Source: Thermoplasmata archaeon (GTDB lineage: Archaea; Thermoplasmatota; Thermoplasmata; Thermoplasmatales; GCA-001856825). From it: a stretch of 64,000 bases of DNA. Shown here one piece after another: positions 326-25,933 of the stretch. The stretch lies in assembly GCA_021797855.1 (NCBI GenBank), contig JAJZYX010000005.1:1-64000 (forward strand), given 5' to 3'. The position numbers and the translations under genes are program-made. The notes below the pieces were generated by a model. The model did no database searches. It worked only from the letters and a program-made list of their open reading frames with translations, and was not told where the DNA came from. Every line of letters begins with the position of its first letter. Position 1 is the stretch's first letter.

Positions 326-961
326 TTAAGTTGCTTTCTTAGGTGGTACCTGGGCCTCTCTTCCCTCGAGGATCCTCCCCAGACCCTGTTTGGCGATAAT
401 GGTGGCGTACTTTGCAGGAAGGGTTACTATGTCCTCCTTGTGCAGGTCTACGGACCTCCCCATTATTGATATCCCTGTCACCTCCTCCAGTATGTACACA
501 ACCACCTGTCTATTCTCCTCATCTTCCCTCACCTCACGCTCCTCCACTCCAATTTCCTCCTCGCCTTCTTTGGTTGGGATTATCACCTCCCCATGTTCCA
601 GCTGAGCGGAGAATTCTGCTACGGATCTTGAAACATTTTCGAAGAATATTTGCTCTTCCGGGGTCATCTTTCCCTCGAGCTCCTCCCTTTCGTTGTTGGC
701 CTTTGCTTTCAATATCTTTGATATCCTCAGTTCAATTATCTTCTTCAGGAACCTTTCAGAAGACTCAAGTTCATTGGTGAGCTTTCCAATCTGCCTCGAG
801 TTCTTCTTCACAGTTTCAGTTTCTATCCTCTCCTTCAGGTTCTCAAGATAATTCCTTGCCTCCTTGTAAAATTGAGTGGGAACCTCCTCGAGGGAATAAT
901 CATTCTTTACCTCCAGTCGAAGAAGTGCATTCAGGTAACTTTCATTGACTTCTCCTTTCAT
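326..961 (-). CDS. GINS complex subunit (Gins51/Gins15-type)
   Basis: GINS is the tetrameric accessory factor of the archaeal CMG replicative helicase, linking MCM with the GAN nuclease and primase. The 211-aa protein has the archaeal Gins51 layout. An N-terminal helical A domain (about residues 10-95) carries the NALLRLEVKND and PTQFYKEARNYLENLKER segments. A charged acidic linker follows (about 125-145). The small beta-rich B domain is at the C-terminus (about 148-200), with the EDIVTLPAKYATIIAKQGLG signature. The start ATG overlaps the end of the upstream VirD4-like ATPase gene by 20 bp, so it is the last cistron of the pilus/ATPase operon. The family call is confident; the operon partner is unexpected. 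No second GINS gene is visible here, which would fit a homotetrameric complex. Confidence 0.85.
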   Translation of the reverse strand: MKGEVNESYLNALLRLEVKNDYSLEEVPTQFYKEARNYLENLKERIETETVKKNSRQIGKLTNELESSERFLKKIIELRISKILKAKANNEREELEGKMTPEEQIFFENVSRSVAEFSAQLEHGEVIIPTKEGEEEIGVEEREVREDEENRQVVVYILEEVTGISIMGRSVDLHKEDIVTLPAKYATIIAKQGLGRILEGREAQVPPKKAT

Positions 962-3029
962 CCGTTGTCAAATAACTCGATGGATAAATATCATTCTTCT
1001 CCAGTATCGTAGCAATGAGATCTGATGTCACCTTGAATTCGCTGGACCTTGCGCTCCCATGCTTATTATTCCCCCTCACCTGGAAGCATTCGTGTCTTCC
1101 TCTGAAGGTGCCGGATTTGATGTTGATCCTTCCGACAAAGTGAATGTCCTTATCTCTGGCAACTTTCTCCTTTAGAGCCAAAATTACTTCCTGCCTGTTA
1201 TACTCACTAAGCACCTTGCAAAACTCCTCGTATATGAAATAAAGTGTGTCGTAGCTCTTCATTTCCGATATGATGGAGTCTATCTTAAAGGACAGTCCAA
1301 TTTTGCCCTTCTGTGTGGCGAAATCAAAATCTTTCTGCTTGAACTCGGTCGATCTTCCTGAAAAATTGACCGGTTCGACATTCCCCCTTTCCTGCCCATA
1401 AGGATTCAAGAGGACGAATTCCATGGGATCCTTCGGAAGGTCCAAACTCGTTCCAGTGAACTCCCTGACGTTTACCTTATCCGGATCCGTGAGTTTCATG
1501 AAGATGTAGTTGGAAATGTTAGAAAATATCAGGGATTGGAGGGTTTCGTGTATTGCCCTGAAGGATGTCGTCACGAAGAACACTCTGACCCCGAATTTCC
1601 TTCCAGAACTTAGGATGTCGCTTATCAGGGTACTCTGGTAGTCGTGCCCTTCCTCCAGGAAAAGAAAATAATTCCCACCTCTTGTTGAAGATATAATTTG
1701 CCAGATGTAGAGGGCGAAGATGTTTGAGAGCAACCTTGAGTCCTCATAGCCTAGGCGTCCTCTGTCCAGATTGATGATTACAAGGTCGCAACCTTGTATG
1801 GCCTTCCTAAGTGTTCCACTATCATTGGGATTACAGATGAACGAACGTATGATCGGGTCGTTCGCTAGCCTTCCTATTGCTCGTTCCGTGCTCGCCTTCT
1901 CTTCTCTCGACATCTCTTCCAGTTCATCCAAGAAATTCCTTAACTCCTGATCATCTGTAGTCGCAGCTATCTCCTTTCTTACTTTTCCATCCTTCAGAAT
2001 ATTGTAGAAGTCAACCAAAGTCATACCCCTTACCCTGGCAAGCAGTGAAATTCCCCTTGACAGTATATCCTCCATCCTTGGCCCGACTAGCGGATCGGTA
2101 TACTGCACCTCCCTGAAGGACCGTAATATTGAAACGAAATCCTCCGCAACCTTGTATGGCAATCCCTTGCCGTCCACCCAGCCAATGACGTTCACAGAGC
2201 TCTCTGAATCGGGGGAAATTACGAACTTGGTGAATGTCGTTTCACACATCTTCCTTGCTGTATCTCCGTGAGGATCTATCAATATAACTTTCCCGGCTCT
2301 TTCCTCAAGAATGTTGTTCATCGCATGAAATATCAGCGAGCTCTTTCCAGCTCCGGAGGCCCCTACAATGAGACTGTGAGGATTCTTCTGCGAGTCTATG
2401 AATACTTCCCCCCTTTTGGGGGTTGTACCTATCTTCACATCTCCTTTGTCCGTGGGGTGGATTCTGGTGGGTATGAACTGGCTAACTTCCCACCATGCTA
2501 CAACCGGGCTTTCAAATCCTATCCTCCCCTTCCTGGCCCTGACCCACTGAGAAGAAAATATGTGACAGAGATAGTTTCCGAGATTTTCGTTTCTATATGT
2601 CAAGACAATCTTCCACCCCTTCCTTTCGCTCATCTTTCTCTCCTTTGGAATTCCTTGAAGTAAACCCTGATTTCCATTCCTGCGACGAAAGTAGTGAGGT
2701 CTGATTGACATTCTGAGAAACCCGGAATCCTCCTCATTTAGCAGCTCCACTATCCTGTCTGCAAGGTTCTCGTTTGCAAAATGAATGAGCCTGGAATCGC
2801 CGCTGGTAAATATTCTTCTGCCCCTGAAATTGAACCCGATCCCTGAGGAGAATTTCCATCCTGCCTTCAGCAGAAAGCTTTCGCTCCCCCTTCCGCAGTA
2901 TATCTTCGTTCTACTTCCGGGTTCCTTCAAGAATAGGAAATCTATCGCGCTTCCTCCCCTCAGCCAAGAGAGAAGGAATGGATTAGTCCCCACGATCGGA
3001 GACAATGATTCAACTCTAAGATATTCCAT
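942..3029 (-). CDS. VirD4/TraG/HerA-type DNA-translocating ATPase
   Basis: This 695-aa P-loop ATPase belongs to the HerA/VirD4 superfamily that pumps DNA or couples substrate to a type IV secretion pore. Walker A (VGASGAGKSSL) is near residue 223. It is followed by the DPHGD motif near residue 250, typical of VirD4/TraG coupling proteins. A second acidic Walker-B-like motif (FLFLEEGHD) is near residue 452, with SSGRKFGVRVFFVTTS just after it, the position of the usual TQ sensor motif. The first 200 residues have no clear membrane segment, so it may be recruited by a partner rather than anchored. The ATG lies inside the end of the VirB4-like gene (14-bp overlap), and its own end overlaps the GINS start. 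Role: inferred energiser or coupling factor of DNA import or export. Confidence 0.75.
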   Translation of the reverse strand: MEYLRVESLSPIVGTNPFLLSWLRGGSAIDFLFLKEPGSRTKIYCGRGSESFLLKAGWKFSSGIGFNFRGRRIFTSGDSRLIHFANENLADRIVELLNEEDSGFLRMSIRPHYFRRRNGNQGLLQGIPKERKMSERKGWKIVLTYRNENLGNYLCHIFSSQWVRARKGRIGFESPVVAWWEVSQFIPTRIHPTDKGDVKIGTTPKRGEVFIDSQKNPHSLIVGASGAGKSSLIFHAMNNILEERAGKVILIDPHGDTARKMCETTFTKFVISPDSESSVNVIGWVDGKGLPYKVAEDFVSILRSFREVQYTDPLVGPRMEDILSRGISLLARVRGMTLVDFYNILKDGKVRKEIAATTDDQELRNFLDELEEMSREEKASTERAIGRLANDPIIRSFICNPNDSGTLRKAIQGCDLVIINLDRGRLGYEDSRLLSNIFALYIWQIISSTRGGNYFLFLEEGHDYQSTLISDILSSGRKFGVRVFFVTTSFRAIHETLQSLIFSNISNYIFMKLTDPDKVNVREFTGTSLDLPKDPMEFVLLNPYGQERGNVEPVNFSGRSTEFKQKDFDFATQKGKIGLSFKIDSIISEMKSYDTLYFIYEEFCKVLSEYNRQEVILALKEKVARDKDIHFVGRINIKSGTFRGRHECFQVRGNNKHGSARSSEFKVTSDLIATILEKNDIYPSSYLTTDERRSQ

Positions 3030-4590
3030 CTATCATATCCCTCTCTCGTTCGTTTGATTGGAATTTCAGTAGTGTTGTGAAAGTGGGAGTTACGAAGAGC
3101 GCCTCCGAATATTTCCCGTTGAATCCTGCTTCCACCCTCAGAAAATTGGACAGACCCTCATCCAGCGAATAGAACTTGATCATGTCCTCGCTCACAACTT
3201 GATGCCTAAAAAGCACATGAATGGAACAGTTCTCCATTATGGTAAGTGCCGGCCCCTTACTCAGGAAATCGTTCGCGGATTGGGATATTAAGATGAGCGA
3301 GATGTTGCTGTGTCGTGCGTGGCGCACATACCTCTCAAGCGAGCTAACAACTTTCTCTTGTAAGAGATAATGAGCCTCGTCTACGACGAGGTTTACCGGT
3401 CTCCCGTCAACGCTTCTCATCAGTAGGTCAAGGGAAAGAAGCATGTAGAAGGGGAGAAGTTTCTTTGGTACGTTGATCAGATTTACTCTTACATCACCCG
3501 TCAGATTAGGATTCTTCCCTGAACAGAATTTTTTGAAGGAACCGTCAAAAATTGGCGATATCTTGTTGTACGTCCCACCCGTCCTAGACTTTACGAAATT
3601 TTCTAGGAATTCCAGACCTTCATTCACTTCATACATCTTCGTGAGACCGCTGTCCAGGACGCCGCTATCTTCGTTATTGAGGTCGAAGAGTGTCATAAGA
3701 AGGGCAAGGGTCCTGTCCACATTCTCCTTTAGCGTAAGGTACGGCACTCTTTCAAATATGTTCATCTCCTGGTTGAGTAGGTCGAGCGATTCTATCTTCA
3801 TCGATTTTGCTAATGTCCCATACTCACCCAGGGGATCAATTATCTTTATGTTCACATTCCTCACCATCTTCTCGCGGAACATGGTTGCCTTGACGAAGAA
3901 GGATTTGCCGAAACCTGTCATTCCAAGTACCAACTGGTGCGATGAAGGGAAAAGCGATCTGTCAAGAAACACAGGTGCCTTGGATATCTCGCATATTCCA
4001 TAGAATGTCCCGTTTTCGTGGAAGAGGTATCCGTGATTTATCGGTATTAGGTTGGAAACAGATTCCGGGTCCAGATATATACCTTCTAGTCTTCCGTCTA
4101 TGATCTTGTTCCTGACCTTCGCGTCCACGTACCTCTTGTTTTCTACTTTGACACTAAGCTTCTTGAGTTGCCGCAATAGGTCCCTTTTGTATGCCAGGAC
4201 ATTTCCTGACTTCCCCTTTATGAAATAAGCTGATGAAAATTTCAAAAGCTTCGACCTGCCTGAAGCAACTTCTTCCTTAAGGTTCTGGATGTTCTGTTTC
4301 GTCATTTTATTGTCTTCTACACTTCTGTCGTTGATTTTCTCGTGATCAATGAGCCCGATGAACCTCCTTCCAAACTCCCTGTTGATTATCCCCCATGCCA
4401 CGCTTTCTTCTATCGGGCGTATACGAACCATCTGCCCCGCAGCTTCCCCACCAGTAACGTTCACCTTGAATCTTGAGTCAATCTCGAAAGGTATGTCCCT
4501 GACGAACAGGAACGAGTGTGCCTGCCCCTTATGGGCGTAGTACCATTCCTTCTGGAGTACCGGGATAGACTTACGTCTAGAAGCGGTCAT
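3016..4590 (-). CDS. VirB4/CedB-like secretion ATPase
   Basis: A 524-aa ATPase with VirB4/TrbE architecture: an N-terminal domain without nucleotide motifs (about residues 1-200) and a C-terminal RecA-like domain. Walker A (LGMTGFGKSFF) is near residue 222, IKIIDPLGEYG follows, and Walker B (VVDEAHYLL) is near residue 400. RHSNISLILISQSANDF then occupies the usual RHxxxxxxxxTQ region. VirB4 proteins power pilus biogenesis and substrate transfer in type IV secretion; the crenarchaeal relative CedB serves DNA import. It overlaps the VirB3-like gene upstream by 14 bp and the VirD4-like gene downstream by 14 bp. The N-terminal part is shorter than in bacterial VirB4 (about 800 aa), as is common in archaea. 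Confidence 0.75.
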   Translation of the reverse strand: MTASRRKSIPVLQKEWYYAHKGQAHSFLFVRDIPFEIDSRFKVNVTGGEAAGQMVRIRPIEESVAWGIINREFGRRFIGLIDHEKINDRSVEDNKMTKQNIQNLKEEVASGRSKLLKFSSAYFIKGKSGNVLAYKRDLLRQLKKLSVKVENKRYVDAKVRNKIIDGRLEGIYLDPESVSNLIPINHGYLFHENGTFYGICEISKAPVFLDRSLFPSSHQLVLGMTGFGKSFFVKATMFREKMVRNVNIKIIDPLGEYGTLAKSMKIESLDLLNQEMNIFERVPYLTLKENVDRTLALLMTLFDLNNEDSGVLDSGLTKMYEVNEGLEFLENFVKSRTGGTYNKISPIFDGSFKKFCSGKNPNLTGDVRVNLINVPKKLLPFYMLLSLDLLMRSVDGRPVNLVVDEAHYLLQEKVVSSLERYVRHARHSNISLILISQSANDFLSKGPALTIMENCSIHVLFRHQVVSEDMIKFYSLDEGLSNFLRVEAGFNGKYSEALFVTPTFTTLLKFQSNERERDMIDGIS

Positions 4591-5161
4591 TGAGGGCCCT
4601 TTCCTCTTCTTCTGCCAGTCTTCTGAAACTCACTCCGTGGTTCCTCAACGTTCTCTCAAGGTCGTCAGCTGCAAACTTGTTGACAATAATGAAGTATGCA
4701 TCTGCGTAGCAGACCATCTCAGAAAATAGCGAGTCGTATTCACTCACCCCCTTTTGGAATCTATGAATCGGAACCTCGTACGGAAACCTGATAATGGCCA
4801 CATCCTCGGACAACGAATCCAAGACAGAAGACCAGGTATGCAGTATGTTCTTATCCCGTTGTTCCGAAAGACCGTAATTGCTTCCGAATACCTCGTAGGC
4901 TGCCCTTTCCTCATTAATCAAAGGGTAGATGTCAAAAACTGTCCATCCCATCAGTTTCTTCCGGATATATTCATCCACGTAATCATACTGAATCCTCAGT
5001 AGGACCAGAGGGAGGAGAATTAAGGATACAAATCCATATTCCCCGAGGAAGAATACTGATAATAAAATTACAAAACTCACAAGAATGACTCTGTACAGTA
5101 CCGTTCCCTCAAGGGGACCGATTCTCATGGATGATGTCTGGAATTTTACCATCCTGACCAT
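4577..5161 (-). CDS. VirB3/PrgI-like membrane protein
   Basis: A 194-aa protein with two adjacent hydrophobic helices near the N-terminus (about residues 24-58, containing VILVSFVILLSVFFLGE and SLILLPLVLL). A soluble domain of about 130 residues follows. A short two-helix protein directly before a VirB4 gene is the typical position and topology of VirB3/PrgI, which anchors VirB4 to the membrane. The soluble part could be a detached portion of the VirB4 N-terminal domain; this is inference. ATG 5161 is four bases after the upstream stop, and the gene overlaps the next one by 14 bp. Sequence similarity alone would not identify it; context and topology carry the call. Confidence 0.5.
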   Translation of the reverse strand: MVRMVKFQTSSMRIGPLEGTVLYRVILVSFVILLSVFFLGEYGFVSLILLPLVLLRIQYDYVDEYIRKKLMGWTVFDIYPLINEERAAYEVFGSNYGLSEQRDKNILHTWSSVLDSLSEDVAIIRFPYEVPIHRFQKGVSEYDSLFSEMVCYADAYFIIVNKFAADDLERTLRNHGVSFRRLAEEEERALNDRF

Positions 5162-5164
5162 TCT

Positions 5165-6196
5165 TCATTTCACCTTGAAGAACATGGATGAATCGTTATC
5201 GGACCCGGAATTCAATGGACTGAGCTGCCTTATTGAGCCTATTACCGGTTCTCCTTTCCCAATTCCCCCTTCCGTTGGTTTTGGAAGAGCATGAGCTATT
5301 GTTTTTGCGCTCCTTGCCCCTTTGCCTACGTAACTCACAGAAGCACCCATTCCCGTCCCTACTGACCTGCCGAGATACCCTGTTGCATGTCGGGACGACT
5401 GACTCAGGGCCAGCATGGTGGGCATAGCATCGGCAAGTGCTAGAAACCCGAGAACAAGTGCGCTGTCATTCCTAACGTACGTGGATAGAATCAATGGGAT
5501 TGCCATCAATATGGGTGCAGCCAATGAATCAATGAACGTGAACCAGATTCTTTCCCCTATCTCCTTTGTCCTTGGAATGAGCATCAGCAGAGTAAATATT
5601 GGCACCAGTACCGGGAAGGTGTATATAATTGCCGCTCTGAGAGAGAGAAACAGCATGAGATAAATCATCAGGAACAGGAAGACGAAAAGAATCAACAGGC
5701 TTACAATTGACCCCGCATTACCTCCAATCTGGAGGCCTGCCAAGACATTCGAGCCTGAAGAAAAGTTGTGAGAAGGGAAACCATAGTCCCAAAGCTGCGA
5801 ATACAACAAGGAGCCGATGTACAAAAAATCCTGGAACAAGAAGAAGGAGATGTTGGAAAGAATCAGGAGAAGAAGCAATTTTATCCAGAAGTTCCTGAAG
5901 TCCATGTTAAGCTGGATGCTGCTGTTCAACAGAATAATCAGTCCGACGACGACCATTATTATTGTGAGTACCGGGTCATAAATGTTGAACATGAGAAAAT
6001 AGTACAGCGACTTTACTCCCTCTCCTATGCTGCCGTTAACAATACTTGGGAACGCATACTGTGGGGAAAGGAGGTATCTTGAGACATAATTGTCGTAAAG
6101 TGATACGAGGATTGGTTTTCCTATGTAGACTAATGCTGAAACTATGTAGCTTAGAGCCCTGACTATTGCGTCCACTATTATTGACACAATGTCCAT
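5165..6196 (-). CDS. Polytopic VirB6/TrbL/CedA-like membrane protein
   Basis: A 343-aa integral membrane protein with about six to seven hydrophobic segments spread over residues 5-260 (examples: LTIIMVVVGLIILLN, LLLLLILSNISFFLF, IVSLLILFVFLFLMIYLML). A polar, Gly/Ser-rich C-terminal tail starts after about residue 265. This is the layout of VirB6/TrbL inner-membrane channel proteins and of CedA, the DNA-import channel protein of Sulfolobales. It lies between the pilin gene (14 bp gap) and the VirB3-like gene (3 bp gap). No catalytic motif is seen. Function as the membrane channel or pilus platform is inferred from topology and neighbours. Confidence 0.55.
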   Translation of the reverse strand: MDIVSIIVDAIVRALSYIVSALVYIGKPILVSLYDNYVSRYLLSPQYAFPSIVNGSIGEGVKSLYYFLMFNIYDPVLTIIMVVVGLIILLNSSIQLNMDFRNFWIKLLLLLILSNISFFLFQDFLYIGSLLYSQLWDYGFPSHNFSSGSNVLAGLQIGGNAGSIVSLLILFVFLFLMIYLMLFLSLRAAIIYTFPVLVPIFTLLMLIPRTKEIGERIWFTFIDSLAAPILMAIPLILSTYVRNDSALVLGFLALADAMPTMLALSQSSRHATGYLGRSVGTGMGASVSYVGKGARSAKTIAHALPKPTEGGIGKGEPVIGSIRQLSPLNSGSDNDSSMFFKVK

Positions 6197-6210
6197 ATTA
6201 CCATTTCTGA

Positions 6211-6555
6211 TTAACCAGCAACGATATAATGGACTACCGCGTACAGAACTCCACTCACTGCCATTACGAATATGACCGTTCCTATGAGCGCATCCTTGGT
6301 CCTTTCCTTGGCATCTGCCTTCCTGTCAAGGTCCTTGGAAAAGTATCCTATTGCAATTGGTACCCAGAGTATTGCTATAATCAACCCGGATACACCTGCA
6401 ATGATACCAAACGCCCTCTGGACCATCCCGTTAATAGTTGAAGCGTTGTCCGATGCAGATGGTACAGAATATTGGTTTGCCGCCGTTCCGTGGACAAATG
6501 CTACTGGAACCACGGAGATAATAACCAGGGCCAATGCCAGTACTAATAATCTCAT
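6211..6555 (-). CDS. VirB2/TedC/CedA1-like pilin precursor
   Basis: A 114-aa protein with a clear signal peptide (MRLLVLALALVIISVVPVAF, cleavage probably after VHG or a few residues later). Two long hydrophobic helices follow (about residues 48-70 and 88-112). They are separated by a short, strongly charged loop (KDLDRKADAKERTKD). This hairpin of two helices with a basic loop is the hallmark of VirB2-type conjugative pilins and of the archaeal CedA1/TedC pilins of DNA-import pili. It is the first gene of the operon. GGGAGGGG lies 5 bases before the ATG. Some other two-helix membrane protein cannot be excluded, but position and topology fit a pilin well. Confidence 0.6.
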   Translation of the reverse strand: MRLLVLALALVIISVVPVAFVHGTAANQYSVPSASDNASTINGMVQRAFGIIAGVSGLIIAILWVPIAIGYFSKDLDRKADAKERTKDALIGTVIFVMAVSGVLYAVVHYIVAG

Positions 6556-6562
6556 TTAACCC

Positions 6563-6596
6563 CTCCCAATATTGCAATCCTTACTTTTATAAAACT
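6563..6596 (-). promoter_or_regulatory. Promoter and ribosome binding site of the pilus/ATPase/GINS operon
   Basis: On the minus strand an AGTTTTATAAAAGT box (6583-6596) lies about 30-35 bp upstream of the pilin ATG, and GGGAGGGG (6563-6570) immediately precedes it. With transcription starting about 25 bp after the box, the leader would be only a few to ten bases, so the ribosome binding site would sit at the extreme 5' end. No other promoter is evident before the five tightly spaced downstream genes, which supports one transcript to GINS. Confidence 0.5.
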
Positions 6597-6661
6597 TTTT
6601 TCAGCATAATTGCTGTGTTGCATAAAATAGAATACAGTTATAGCCATCTTGTTTGAGAACC

Positions 6662-7762
6662 ATGGTCGACTTTGAGAATGAAATTAAATCGAGAATCAAA
6701 TTACTCCAGCGGTGGGTCTCTAAAGAAAACATAGGTGGAATTTACCTTACTCCGGGAGACAACTTCTACTACTCGTCCGGGTTCAACGCCGATTCAATGG
6801 AACGTCTCCTTGCAGTAATTATAACTGCAGAGAGGTCAGTAATGGTAAGCCCACTGATGCTAGAGGACCAGATAAGAGGAACGCCATGGCCAGGAGAAAT
6901 TGTTACTTGGAAGGATGGAGAGGACCCATACAAATGTGTCTTAGAAGTGTTCACAAGAGAGCATATTGAAACGCTTGCGGTGGAAAACAGAATTGGCTAT
7001 TCCGATGTCCTTAGATTTAAAAAGATGGGAGTCAAGAAATTCAAATTTTCAGATAGCCTGTTCAATTCTTTGCGGATAACAAAGACCAACAATGAGATTG
7101 AATTCATTTCTATGGCAATAAGGTTATCTGAGGCATCTTACGTGAAAGCACTGGAAGAGGTCCACAAAGGAATGACAGAAGTGGAGCTTGCTGGTATCCT
7201 CGAATATAAATTCAAACTTAACTCCCTCCAATCTGTGGCCTTCGAAAGTATAGTTGCATTTGGTGAAAATGCTGCGATACCTCACCATGTTCCATCAGGA
7301 AGGAAACTGAGGTCTGGGGATCTCATACTGGTGGACTTTGGAGGAAAATACATGGGGTATTCCTCTGACACCACCAGAACCTGTGCATACGACAAAATCC
7401 AACCAGAAATGAAGACAATATACGAAATAGTTAAAGATGCACAGGAAAGCGCTCTGCATGGAATCAGAAGAGATTCCACTTATGCTTCCATCGACAAAAC
7501 TGCCCGTGACATTATAACTAAGAGCGGATATGGCAAGCACTTCACTCACAGGGTAGGCCACGGACTTGGAATTGCAGTTCACGAAGAGCCCTACTTGAAT
7601 TTTCTCAACAAACAAGTCATCCAGAAGAATGCTGTCTTCACCATCGAGCCGGGCATCTATCTCAAGGGGAAGGGAGGGGTAAGAATAGAGGATACCGTCT
7701 CATTTAATGGCGAAAGAGCGATACCGTTCAACAAACTATCCAAGGAACTTGCAACAATCTAG
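6662..7762 (+). CDS. pepQ: Xaa-Pro aminopeptidase/dipeptidase (M24 family)
   Basis: A cytosolic metallopeptidase of about 366 aa that removes residues next to proline. The N-terminal creatinase-like domain (about 1-125) precedes the pita-bread catalytic domain. The metal-binding residues are visible in order: DFGGKYMGYSSDTTR (two Asp), HRVGHGLGIAVHE (His), TIEPGIYL (Glu) and GGVRIEDT (Glu). I place the start at ATG 6662 rather than TTG 6653, because a TATA-like CAGTTATAG lies about 25 bp upstream and predicts a leaderless mRNA. It is divergent from the pilin operon. Confidence 0.85.
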   Translation: MVDFENEIKSRIKLLQRWVSKENIGGIYLTPGDNFYYSSGFNADSMERLLAVIITAERSVMVSPLMLEDQIRGTPWPGEIVTWKDGEDPYKCVLEVFTREHIETLAVENRIGYSDVLRFKKMGVKKFKFSDSLFNSLRITKTNNEIEFISMAIRLSEASYVKALEEVHKGMTEVELAGILEYKFKLNSLQSVAFESIVAFGENAAIPHHVPSGRKLRSGDLILVDFGGKYMGYSSDTTRTCAYDKIQPEMKTIYEIVKDAQESALHGIRRDSTYASIDKTARDIITKSGYGKHFTHRVGHGLGIAVHEEPYLNFLNKQVIQKNAVFTIEPGIYLKGKGGVRIEDTVSFNGERAIPFNKLSKELATI

Positions 7763-7886
7763 GCCCTGGCATAACGTATCATCTGTTCTCCTTTCATTAG
7801 ACTTAACTTTTCCATCAATAAGTGAAGCCTTCGGTGGTTCATACCGCAATCAACAAAGATAATAATTTGTGTATATTTCTATAAGC

Positions 7887-8075
7887 ATGGAAGAGCAGTG
7901 CGATGTTGCAGGTTGTTCTAACCCGAAAGCAAGGACTATAGGAAGGAAATCAGTTGAGAAGATATTCACTCTGAATTCCAAAGGAACAAAGGCCCACCTG
8001 TGCAAGGAACATTACAAACAGTACAAGAAGGCAACAAAGAAGGACAGGGAAATTGATAGGCTGAACTGGGTTTGA
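7887..8075 (+). CDS. Small zinc-binding protein
   Basis: A 62-aa protein with CDVAGC near the N-terminus and CKEHY in the middle, so Cys, Cys, Cys and His could bind one zinc ion; the rest is rich in Lys. Such small conserved zinc proteins of unknown role are common in archaea. ATG 7887 is preferred over GTG 7869 because an A+T-rich TATA-like segment (about 7858-7866) is about 25 bp upstream. It overlaps the next regulator gene by 4 bp and heads the topoisomerase VI operon, which hints at a DNA- or RNA-related role (inference). Confidence 0.6.
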   Translation: MEEQCDVAGCSNPKARTIGRKSVEKIFTLNSKGTKAHLCKEHYKQYKKATKKDREIDRLNWV

Positions 8076-8869
8076 AGTCTGTTACGAGGAGCGATTATAT
8101 GCAGGACTTATATGAATTCAGGGAAAAGGGAAACCTGACATCTGCACTGATCATAATCGAGCTGCTGAGGGGCAAGAGAAAGTTAAGGGAGATATCAACA
8201 GACCTCAAAATAACGCCACAGGGAGCATCGGTATATCTGAAGAATCTTCAGAAGAACAATTTCGTTGACTCCGGCAACACACCAACACCAAAGGGAGTAG
8301 CATTCCTCCAGCAGATACTCTCCACGATTTCCCAATTCGTAGAGAATGCTTACGAAGACACTGGAATTATCTCGTCCTGCGAAGCCATTGCCTGGGATGA
8401 CCTTAAAAAAGGTGATAGGGTCAGCCTTTCCATGAAGAAAGGGATCCTTTACGCTAGCAAGAGAATAAGGTCAGGTTCAAACGGCATAGTTGATTTCAAT
8501 GCCAAAAAGGGGGAACCGGTTAGGGTTTCGAATATCGAGGGAATAATCAATCATAAGGTAGGCGAGTTCTACGTAATGTCGGTAGACTTCGATGACCTGA
8601 AAGCCAATGGGGTAAGGAAGCTGAAGAATGTTATAAACAAGAAAAAGGTGGAATATGTTGGAGCCTACGGGGTCCTCGCTTACGAAATGTGCAACCGTGC
8701 CGGTATAAAGACAAGTATTTATGCACCGGTAGAAGGATGCATCGAAGCAGGGGCTAAGGGGCTGACAAGCCTGCTGGTATACTCCCCGGAGATGGCCAGG
8801 TTCTTCTTCCAGAAACTCTCTGCAAACATACATAAGTACAAAATAAATCCCAAATTCGTAGAGATATGA
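8072..8869 (+). CDS. Winged-helix transcriptional regulator with C-terminal ligand-like domain
   Basis: A 265-aa protein. Residues about 15-85 form a winged-helix domain with ALIIIELLRGKRKLREIS followed by a recognition segment (TPQGASVYLKNLQKNNFV). The C-terminal part (about 100-265) is a mixed alpha/beta domain ending in hydrophobic helices and is not assigned. It starts at TTG 8072, overlapping the previous stop (TTGA), or at ATG 8099. Its stop overlaps the top6B start (ATGA). It is a conserved-type archaeal regulator; the target could be its own topoisomerase operon, but no operator is visible. Confidence 0.6.
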   Translation: MKSVTRSDYMQDLYEFREKGNLTSALIIIELLRGKRKLREISTDLKITPQGASVYLKNLQKNNFVDSGNTPTPKGVAFLQQILSTISQFVENAYEDTGIISSCEAIAWDDLKKGDRVSLSMKKGILYASKRIRSGSNGIVDFNAKKGEPVRVSNIEGIINHKVGEFYVMSVDFDDLKANGVRKLKNVINKKKVEYVGAYGVLAYEMCNRAGIKTSIYAPVEGCIEAGAKGLTSLLVYSPEMARFFFQKLSANIHKYKINPKFVEI

Positions 8870-10635
8870 CTGAGTTGGATACGGATAGAAAGGAAGTCAG
8901 CATTTCTGAGTTCTTCGACAAAAACAAGCAGATGCTTGGTTTTGACTCCCCGCAAAAGGCACTCTTCATGACTGTCAAGGAGGCAGTTGACAATTCGCTG
9001 GATGCTTGTGTGGACAGTGGGATTCTTCCTGAAATAACAGTCAAGATTGAGGAGCTTGGAAAAGAAAAATACAGGGTCGAGGTCACGGATAACGGACCGG
9101 GGATAAAAAGGACCGAGGTTGCAAATTCATTCGGTAAGATGCTGTACGGTTCAAGATTCTTCAAGGAGAGGCAGACAAGGGGACAGCAGGGACTCGGCAT
9201 ATCAGCTGCGATACTCTATGCCCAGAAGACGACCGGATTCCCGACTGAGATAATAACAAAGGTTGAGGGAGATATGACGGCATTCCACTTTGTCCTTGAT
9301 ATTGACATAAAGAAGAATTCCCCCCACAAGATCTCTGAGGTGCCCGAAATATGGGACGTAAAGAGTGGCCTTAAGATCATCCTGGTCCTCAAAGGGAAGT
9401 ATGTTGGAGGGAAACAATCGGTCGAGGAATACATCAGGGAGAGTGCGATTGCCAACCCTCATTCCACGTTTCACCTGATACTCCCGGACAAGAGAGTGGA
9501 CATTGAAAGGAGCATAGAAGAGGCTCCACCCATTCCTATAGCGGTCAAACCCCATCCGCACGGAGTCGAGCTTGGAGAGCTAATCTCAATACTCAGGGAA
9601 TTTGAAAACCAGAGCATAGAGGAAGTTCTTGAGGATAAATTCTCCAGGGTAACAAAACAGACGGCGAGGGCAATAGTAGAGCGGTGCAAATTGGGAGGAC
9701 GCAAAATATCAAAGCTTACGAGAGACGATTTTGAAGAGCTTTTGAAGGCGATAAGAGAGACAGAATTCATGGAGCCAAAGAAGGACTGTCTTTCCCCCAT
9801 CGGAGGGGAGGCCCTTTTCAAAAGCGCAATCAATTCCTTCAAGGACTATCACCCCGCTTATTTCTCGCAGGCGGTTGTCCGCGGACCCTTCGTATTTTCC
9901 GGACACCCCTTTCTTGTTGAGGCTATAGCAATTTATGGAGGGGACCTGCCGAAAGAAGAAACGATCAGAGTCCTGAGGTTCGCAAACAGGGTACCGCTAC
10001 TCTACCAGTCTGGAAGCTGTGCAATAACGAGGGCCGTCTCTTCTATTTCGTGGAGTCAGTACGGAATTTCACAACCGGTGAAGGACCAGCTCCCAATAGG
10101 TCCTCTAGTCATTGCAGTACACGTAGCAAGCACAAAGGTCCCATTTACCTCGGAGGCAAAGGAAGCTATTGCCCCAGTTCCAGAAATAATGGATGCTCTT
10201 GACATCCTCTTGAAAGGGGTAGCAAGGCAGATAAAGACCATGAGGAAGAAGGAGGCCCACAAGAGTCAGGTTGCCGAGAAATTTTCACTCATAGAGCAGA
10301 TACTGCCAGAGATAGCTGCCAAGAGCTCCAAGATTCTAAAGGTAGAGCCTCCGGACATTACGCCGATAATATCAAAGGTGATGGGCGTAGTAGCCTTCAG
10401 GGAAGTGGAGGGGGAGCTATTTGCTGAAAATTACACTGAGAAGACCCATTCGTTCAAGGTGGTACTGAAGGGGGAAGGGACATTCACGGAGACTGTCAAG
10501 AACCTGAAACCATTTCAGAAAGTTAAGCTGAAATTCCCGAAAGAGGTGGTCAGCTCTTCGGAAATATATGCCGATCTTCCAGAACCGGTCCTCCTAGGGG
10601 CGTACACACTACCAAAGGTGTTTAGCGATGAATGA
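8866..10635 (+). CDS. top6B: DNA topoisomerase VI subunit B
   Basis: The ATPase subunit of the type IIB topoisomerase that relaxes and decatenates DNA. The GHKL motifs are clear: VKEAVDNSLDAC (about 37-48), VTDNGPGI (about 74-81) and RGQQGLGISAA (about 106-116). The helix-two-turn-helix region (about 250-300, TARAIVERCKLGGRKIS) and the transducer domain follow. At 589 aa it is somewhat longer than the roughly 530 aa typical of Sulfolobus. It overlaps both the upstream regulator (4 bp) and top6A (8 bp), so subunits A and B are co-translated. Its presence argues against a classical Thermoplasmatales genome, where gyrase replaces Topo VI. Confidence 0.93.
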   Translation: MTELDTDRKEVSISEFFDKNKQMLGFDSPQKALFMTVKEAVDNSLDACVDSGILPEITVKIEELGKEKYRVEVTDNGPGIKRTEVANSFGKMLYGSRFFKERQTRGQQGLGISAAILYAQKTTGFPTEIITKVEGDMTAFHFVLDIDIKKNSPHKISEVPEIWDVKSGLKIILVLKGKYVGGKQSVEEYIRESAIANPHSTFHLILPDKRVDIERSIEEAPPIPIAVKPHPHGVELGELISILREFENQSIEEVLEDKFSRVTKQTARAIVERCKLGGRKISKLTRDDFEELLKAIRETEFMEPKKDCLSPIGGEALFKSAINSFKDYHPAYFSQAVVRGPFVFSGHPFLVEAIAIYGGDLPKEETIRVLRFANRVPLLYQSGSCAITRAVSSISWSQYGISQPVKDQLPIGPLVIAVHVASTKVPFTSEAKEAIAPVPEIMDALDILLKGVARQIKTMRKKEAHKSQVAEKFSLIEQILPEIAAKSSKILKVEPPDITPIISKVMGVVAFREVEGELFAENYTEKTHSFKVVLKGEGTFTETVKNLKPFQKVKLKFPKEVVSSSEIYADLPEPVLLGAYTLPKVFSDE

Positions 10636-25768: not shown

Positions 25769-25933
25769 CCCTTCATAATTGTTTTTGCCCTATTAACATT
25801 GGTGTTCCACCCGAAACGAGGGGGCCCGGGTTGCTAAATTTTCGTTTGTTTTGATGACGAGGAGCGTAGACAACATAATCTCTTTCCTAGAAATAATTCA
25901 ATTATGTTCCCACCGATGCTGACCTGCCAATTG

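Follow-up and report, generated by a model that had tools for sequence, protein, structure and literature searches.

The window, as the whole 64,000-nucleotide stretch of DNA analysed is called here, comes from a genome assembly that is 52% complete and whose closest named relatives include I-plasma. It carries five coupled open reading frames on the minus strand, encoding in order a pilin, a polytopic membrane protein, a two-helix protein, a VirB4-type ATPase and a VirD4-type ATPase; neighbouring genes of the set overlap or lie 3–14 bp apart. All five reading frames proposed by a first-pass annotation of this DNA were confirmed. The range it gave for them, 326–6555, does contain the five named genes but also takes in a sixth, left unnamed there, that encodes a GINS (Gins23-like) DNA replication protein (326..961, minus strand, 211 aa) and overlaps the VirD4 gene. 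The GINS gene matched Pfam Sld5 at 5.5e-5, above the cut-off, and NCBIfam Gins23 at 4.8e-14, below the cut-off of that family. Its adjacency to the VirD4 gene is kept in 11 members of the I-plasma family, and it is probably a host gene outside the machine.

The operon lies in a chromosomal setting. Beyond the GINS gene, the first 86 bases of the window belong to a 23S rRNA gene, and the flank on the pilin side holds divergent pepQ, a probable regulator and the topoisomerase VI genes (Top6B/Top6A). Upstream of the pilin gene (6556..6605, minus strand) lie a likely operon promoter, TTTTATAAAAG, with a TATA-like box, and a likely ribosome-binding site, GGGAGGGG, with the motif GGAGGGG. A similar A/T box and GGAGG appear in family members when the upstream regions are aligned by eye.

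Components of the operon

The pilin gene (6211..6555, minus strand) encodes 114 residues, with a hydrophobic leader and two hydrophobic helices around a basic loop, KDLDRKADAKERTK; judged by eye, the leader is likely cleaved near VHG/TA. Pfam T4SS_pilin was detected in 24 of 27 aligned pilin homologues (best 4e-8). The window's own pilin scored 2.8e-4 against this family, below the cut-off, and 0.0014 against the Mbov_0395-type pilin of NCBIfam. These matches identify a predicted VirB2-type pilin, a part expected of a type IV secretion system (T4SS). In an I-plasma locus (L037, 5802 onwards), one extra G in a G run breaks the frame of the pilin gene, possibly through a sequencing error. An Aciduliprofundum sp. 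has four pilin-domain genes in an array (L137, 3170–6922), three of which carry ∼260–340 extra residues before the C-terminal pilin hairpin, recalling the pilin arrays of Patescibacteria.

The adjoining gene (5165..6196, minus strand) encodes a polytopic membrane protein of 343 aa with ∼7 hydrophobic (TM) segments. The protein had no direct Pfam match. Its family profile found bacterial T4SS proteins (7e-14 and 3.1e-12) that themselves pass the TrbL PF04610/TrbL_4 cut-offs, and profile–profile comparison reached 98.3%. Through these bacterial intermediates, the protein is assigned as a putative VirB6/TrbL component, another expected part of a T4SS. In alignment the pilin has the same topology as CedA1/TedC; searches of PDB sequences with the pilin and VirB6 profiles gave no match and so no direct link to CedA1/TedC.

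The third protein (4577..5161, minus strand, 194 aa) had been described simply as having two helices. A hairpin of VirB3 type is indeed predicted, but the protein is more than a VirB3: the best reading is that a PrgI/TrsC (VirB3) hairpin is here linked to a TrsD-like domain, the N-terminal domain of VirB4. The pooled profile of this VirB3/N protein matched pSK41 TrsD (16.8 bits) and, weakly, TrsC. Its soluble part aligned at 98.7% with Patescibacteria proteins located just before VirB4 and encoded behind a separate PrgI-like hairpin gene; one such VirB4-adjacent protein matched TraC_F_IV at 4.4e-5, over the N-terminal half of the TraC family. Some Thermoplasmataceae have a fusion of the VirB3/N protein with VirB4, to which the separate protein aligns collinearly. 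One relative matched PrgI at 0.015. The window's own subfamily taken alone gave a weak profile match (23–66%), and the assignment therefore rests on relatives and position. A fold search with the 194-aa protein returned no match below 1e-3, the soluble domain being generically ferredoxin-like. The data support, with moderate strength, a VirB3-type hairpin adjoining or fused to VirB4, as expected of a T4SS. Direct profile comparison of the archaeal proteins with pCF10 PrgH, PrgI and PrgF and with F TraA and TraG gave no convincing match; the links to known T4SS parts needed intermediates from Patescibacteria, Actinobacteria and pSK41.

Two families have an extra small TM protein (92–139 aa) between the VirB3/N gene and VirB4 (L131, 5298–5624; L137, 8922–9341). 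This protein has no family match and is apparently fused to VirB4 in another locus (L043). A thioesterase adjoining the Thermoplasmataceae operon was judged to have a housekeeping role and was discounted as a possible component.

The remaining two genes encode P-loop motors. The VirB4-type ATPase (3016..4590, minus strand, 524 aa) has Walker A GMTGFGKS and Walker B VVDEAH; the VirD4/TraG-type coupling ATPase (942..3029, minus strand, 695 aa, no TM helix) has Walker A GASGAGKS and Walker B FLFLEE. The former matched NCBIfam VirB4 CD1110 at 1.2e-21, below the cut-off of that family, and its profile matched the PDB VirB4 structure 4ag5 at 2.4e-26. CD1110 and Mycoplasma ICE VirB4 are its best curated VirB4 matches, and its profile gives pCF10 PrgJ a far higher score than F TraC. 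In an ATPase tree, built without pCF10 PrgJ and PcfC (both missed by the Walker A pattern), this motor falls in the VirB4 clade with F TraC, apart from HerA, and sequence comparison thus points to the VirB4-type ATPase that is the hallmark of a T4SS. The VirD4-type motor lies on the F TraD side of the tree, in a clade shared with coupling ATPases from Actinobacteria, Patescibacteria and Archaeoglobi. Its AlphaFold model (mean pLDDT 81.5) matched TrwB with an E-value of 3e-13 and a target TM-score of 0.54–0.57, compared with TM-scores of 0.35–0.50 for the HerA entries listed; HerA was also among the best E-values, so the class was decided by the tree and not by the fold alone. A VirD4-type coupling ATPase is therefore present as well. 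The tree agrees with the separate VirB4 and VirD4 motors proposed in the first-pass annotation, and a grouping of the ATPases with HerA, named there as evidence against a secretion system, was not observed.

The VirD4 gene lies within the operon only in the I-plasma family and outside it in other families. A second VirD4-like ATPase (542–554 aa in the window's family, ∼620–670 aa in Thermoplasmataceae) is encoded elsewhere in most of the examined genomes of the order. Two members were tested, and both exceed the cut-off for the TrwB coupling domain; the gene probably corresponds to arCOG04816, recorded in Cuniculiplasma (PMC5155288). Because other genomes encode a VirD4-like ATPase elsewhere, the operon VirD4 is a family-level addition or retention and not part of the order-wide core. 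One copy of the second ATPase, at ∼62500–64200 of G000:C7 (L084, 2545–4203), has 552 aa and no TM helix. On an I-plasma contig (ATMD01000003, 20–6126; L150/L063), a 1679-aa protein at the contig end comes after a further, partial VirB4-type ATPase that is unlike the operon copy; this locus may be a mobile element.

Conservation in Thermoplasmatales

The gene order is not unique to this genome. The six-gene order, GINS included, is repeated in 10 other genomes of the I-plasma family. The first four genes (pilin, VirB6-like, VirB3/N and VirB4) stand in the same order in three more families of the order and in one further family of the class outside it. The operon is therefore not a chance assembly. 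The five-gene system first described holds for the I-plasma family, but the order-wide core consists of four genes. Of 117 genomes of the order, 92 have the VirB6-like gene, as do 45 of the 51 good ones, nearly always as a single copy; the pilin–VirB6–VirB3–VirB4 core occurs almost throughout the order, once per genome.

Sequence relationships follow the same lines. Profile–profile comparison of VirB6-like proteins across families gave 98–99.5%, and that of pilins from the window's family with those of Thermoplasmataceae and Aciduliprofundum-like genomes gave 97–99.9%. The direct pilin profile link to the fourth family is weak by itself (2.6%), and the gene occupies the same position there. 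Families form intact clades in both the VirB6 tree and the VirB4 tree. For the five genes, dN/dS in close genome pairs is 0.05–0.23, indicating purifying selection. The operon was missing from four incomplete genomes of the family, three of which also lack Top6B and GINS, so that the contigs themselves are probably missing; the fourth (G004) has Top6B and GINS on separate contigs. In the Aciduliprofundum-like group, at least one genome that forms a single contig (G021) seems truly to lack the operon. The best explanation is that the core has been kept vertically in Thermoplasmatales as an inherited part of the chromosome.

The window is ∼72% identical to G006/G007 across 64 kb. A single ∼2.9 kb tract, 6350–9300, is 92–93% identical to the same genomes and is the only such tract in the window; it runs from within the pilin gene into Top6B. 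Recombination between lineages, at the level of species, is its most likely origin. The tract shows that exchange happens at the locus, not that the machine encoded by the operon carried it out. At 25801, another stretch of 300 bp is similar among all three compared genomes and is therefore simply conserved.

Function and alternative readings

The operon probably encodes a minimal chromosomal T4SS of MPF_FATA affinity, vertically kept and most likely moving DNA between cells. Profiles, tree and fold all support the conjugation-type machine with VirB2-, VirB6-, VirB4- and VirD4-type parts that the first-pass annotation had recognised. As to pilus formation, DNA as the substrate, the direction of transfer and the source of DNA ends, we infer a scheme in which pilin subunits would assemble into a thin pilus bridging cells and the VirB6-type protein would form a channel across the single membrane. 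The VirB3-hairpin/VirB4-N protein would anchor the split VirB4 motor, which would drive both pilus assembly and translocation, while the VirD4-type motor would feed DNA to the channel. The DNA ends would be made by host repair enzymes and not by a relaxase.

Several observations support DNA transfer. The operon VirD4 profile matched the ATPase of pT33-3, a plasmid of Thermococcus strain 33-3, at 1.2e-21, and according to a review, mutation of VirB4/VirD4 of that plasmid abolishes conjugation (PMC12857230). No relaxase of the families PF03432, PF08751 or PF03389 was found in 10–15 genomes, in searches that detected the positive controls; this agrees with the absence of a relaxase claimed earlier and resembles Ced/Ted (PMC9905601). 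Related gene orders, the identities of the parts, order-wide conservation and purifying selection point the same way. Pili linking cells have been seen in an acid-mine community containing I-plasma (PMC3750248), and were not assigned to species or type. Against DNA transfer, VirD4 lies outside the operon in other families, the VirB3/N fold search and the PDB sequence searches with the pilin and VirB6-type protein were negative as described above, and some Patescibacteria keep such machines without demonstrated DNA transfer.

A narrower form of DNA transfer, towards which the first-pass annotation leaned, is a dedicated Ced-like importer, by which recipients pull in DNA for repair of their own chromosome. 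The lack of the three relaxase families and the chromosomal, order-wide, single-copy state favour it, and Ced imports and has no relaxase (PMC9905601). Nothing in the sequence fixes direction, however; a VirD4-type motor is present, whereas Ced uses CedB and CedD, and some Saccharolobus components serve both import and export (PMC11868833). With a VirD4 motor, export or exchange in both directions is no less fitting than import, and a machine used mainly for import is a possibility that we consider rather unlikely. Still less probable is a pilus or protein-secretion machine for attachment or microbe contact that has lost DNA transfer, as suggested for Patescibacteria (PMC12102498). Order-wide retention without a relaxase, the Aciduliprofundum pilin arrays with large extra domains and the Patescibacteria parallel are consistent with this, but the VirD4-type motor is retained under purifying selection and the operon contains no effector-like gene.

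It is highly improbable that the operon is a remnant or living integrative conjugative element or a provirus and not a host system. Relatives of VirB4 and VirD4 do occur on archaeal plasmids, those of VirD4 including Sulfolobus plasmids and pT33-3. Yet the operon keeps the same place throughout the family, between pepQ, Top6B/Top6A and GINS/23S rRNA, is single-copy order-wide and follows the families as intact clades in the VirB6 and VirB4 trees. Besides the lack of the three relaxase families, viral contigs gave no VirB6 match, and their VirD4 relatives are ≤25% identical apart from one 43-residue stretch. That the ATPases are HerA-type repair helicases beside unrelated membrane genes is scarcely credible, since the Pfam DUF87/HerA matches in both (the PHROGs search likewise gave mainly P-loop cross-matches) are outweighed by a true HerA that forms a separate gene and clade, the conserved synteny and the VirB6 and pilin identities.

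A chromosomal T4SS that moves DNA is thus the preferred reading, and it suggests that the whole group of acid-loving Thermoplasma relatives has cell-to-cell DNA exchange as a permanent trait. More tentatively, and with the balance tilted slightly towards doubt, the operon could represent a conjugation machine that is ancestral, belongs to the host and provides Thermoplasmatales with a permanent means of DNA exchange. It would be a third type in archaea next to Ced and Ted, with joined VirB3–VirB4N, a split VirB4 motor and its own VirD4 in the I-plasma family. How euryarchaea exchange DNA is poorly accounted for: the Ced and Ted systems come from Thermoproteota, and the euryarchaeal conjugation that has been demonstrated is that of a plasmid (pT33-3; PMC12857230). 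With a relaxase-free, vertically kept machine in almost all good Thermoplasmatales genomes, those of cultivable relatives among them, the question can be tested directly; if the proposal is true, conjugation machines belonging to the host arose or persisted widely among archaea and not in one phylum only.

Comparison with known systems

By sequence, the parts match a minimal T4SS with probable MPF_FATA affinity. MPF_FATA systems (pCF10 Prg/Pcf; pSK41/pGO1 Trs; Mycoplasma and CD1110 elements) have a related gene order and share pilin-like, VirB6/TrbL, PrgI/TrsC, TrsD, VirB4 and VirD4 parts with the archaeal operon. Unlike them, the operon is chromosomal, none of the three relaxase families was found, the VirB3 hairpin is joined to the TrsD-like domain, and no VirB8, VirB1 or adhesin is seen. 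Related orders occur in Actinobacteria (VirB6–VirB4–VirD4), Archaeoglobales (VirB3/N–VirB4–VirD4) and Saccharibacteria (pilin/VirB6–PrgI–TrsD–VirB4), and in annotated pCF10 and pSK41. The T4SSs of Patescibacteria (PMC12102498) are likewise chromosomal, of MPF_FATA affinity and mostly without a relaxase, with VirB2-like pilins, VirB6, PrgI, TrsD and VirB4. PrgI and TrsD are separate genes there, whereas they are joined in the archaeal operon, together with VirB4 in some Thermoplasmataceae.

Ced/Ted (PMC9905601, PMC11868833) share with the operon a two-helix pilin, a 7-TM VirB6-like channel, a VirB4-like motor, the chromosomal location and the lack of a relaxase; in contrast, the Thermoplasmata operon contains a VirD4-type motor and a VirB4 of the TraC clade. 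No protein exceeded the CedB cut-off in 8 genomes, with the S. acidocaldarius control positive, so by this test the system is not Ced. Its designation as a third type in the first-pass annotation is reasonable. The euryarchaeal plasmid pT33-3 (PMC12857230) resembles the operon in having a related VirD4 motor and no relaxase, and differs from it in being plasmid-borne. The cluster itself is not a new discovery, because a single sentence on Cuniculiplasma in 2016 already listed CSP5_1185–1189 and CSP5_0791 as secretion components: VirB4 (arCOG04034), a multipass protein, two membrane proteins and a VirD4-family ATPase (PMC5155288). That cluster is probably the same four-gene core, reported without VirB3, VirB6 or pilin assignment, order-wide survey or DNA-transfer analysis. 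Within the literature searched, what is new is the identification of each part, the recognition of fused and split forms of VirB3/VirB4, the survey across the order and the connection with pT33-3.
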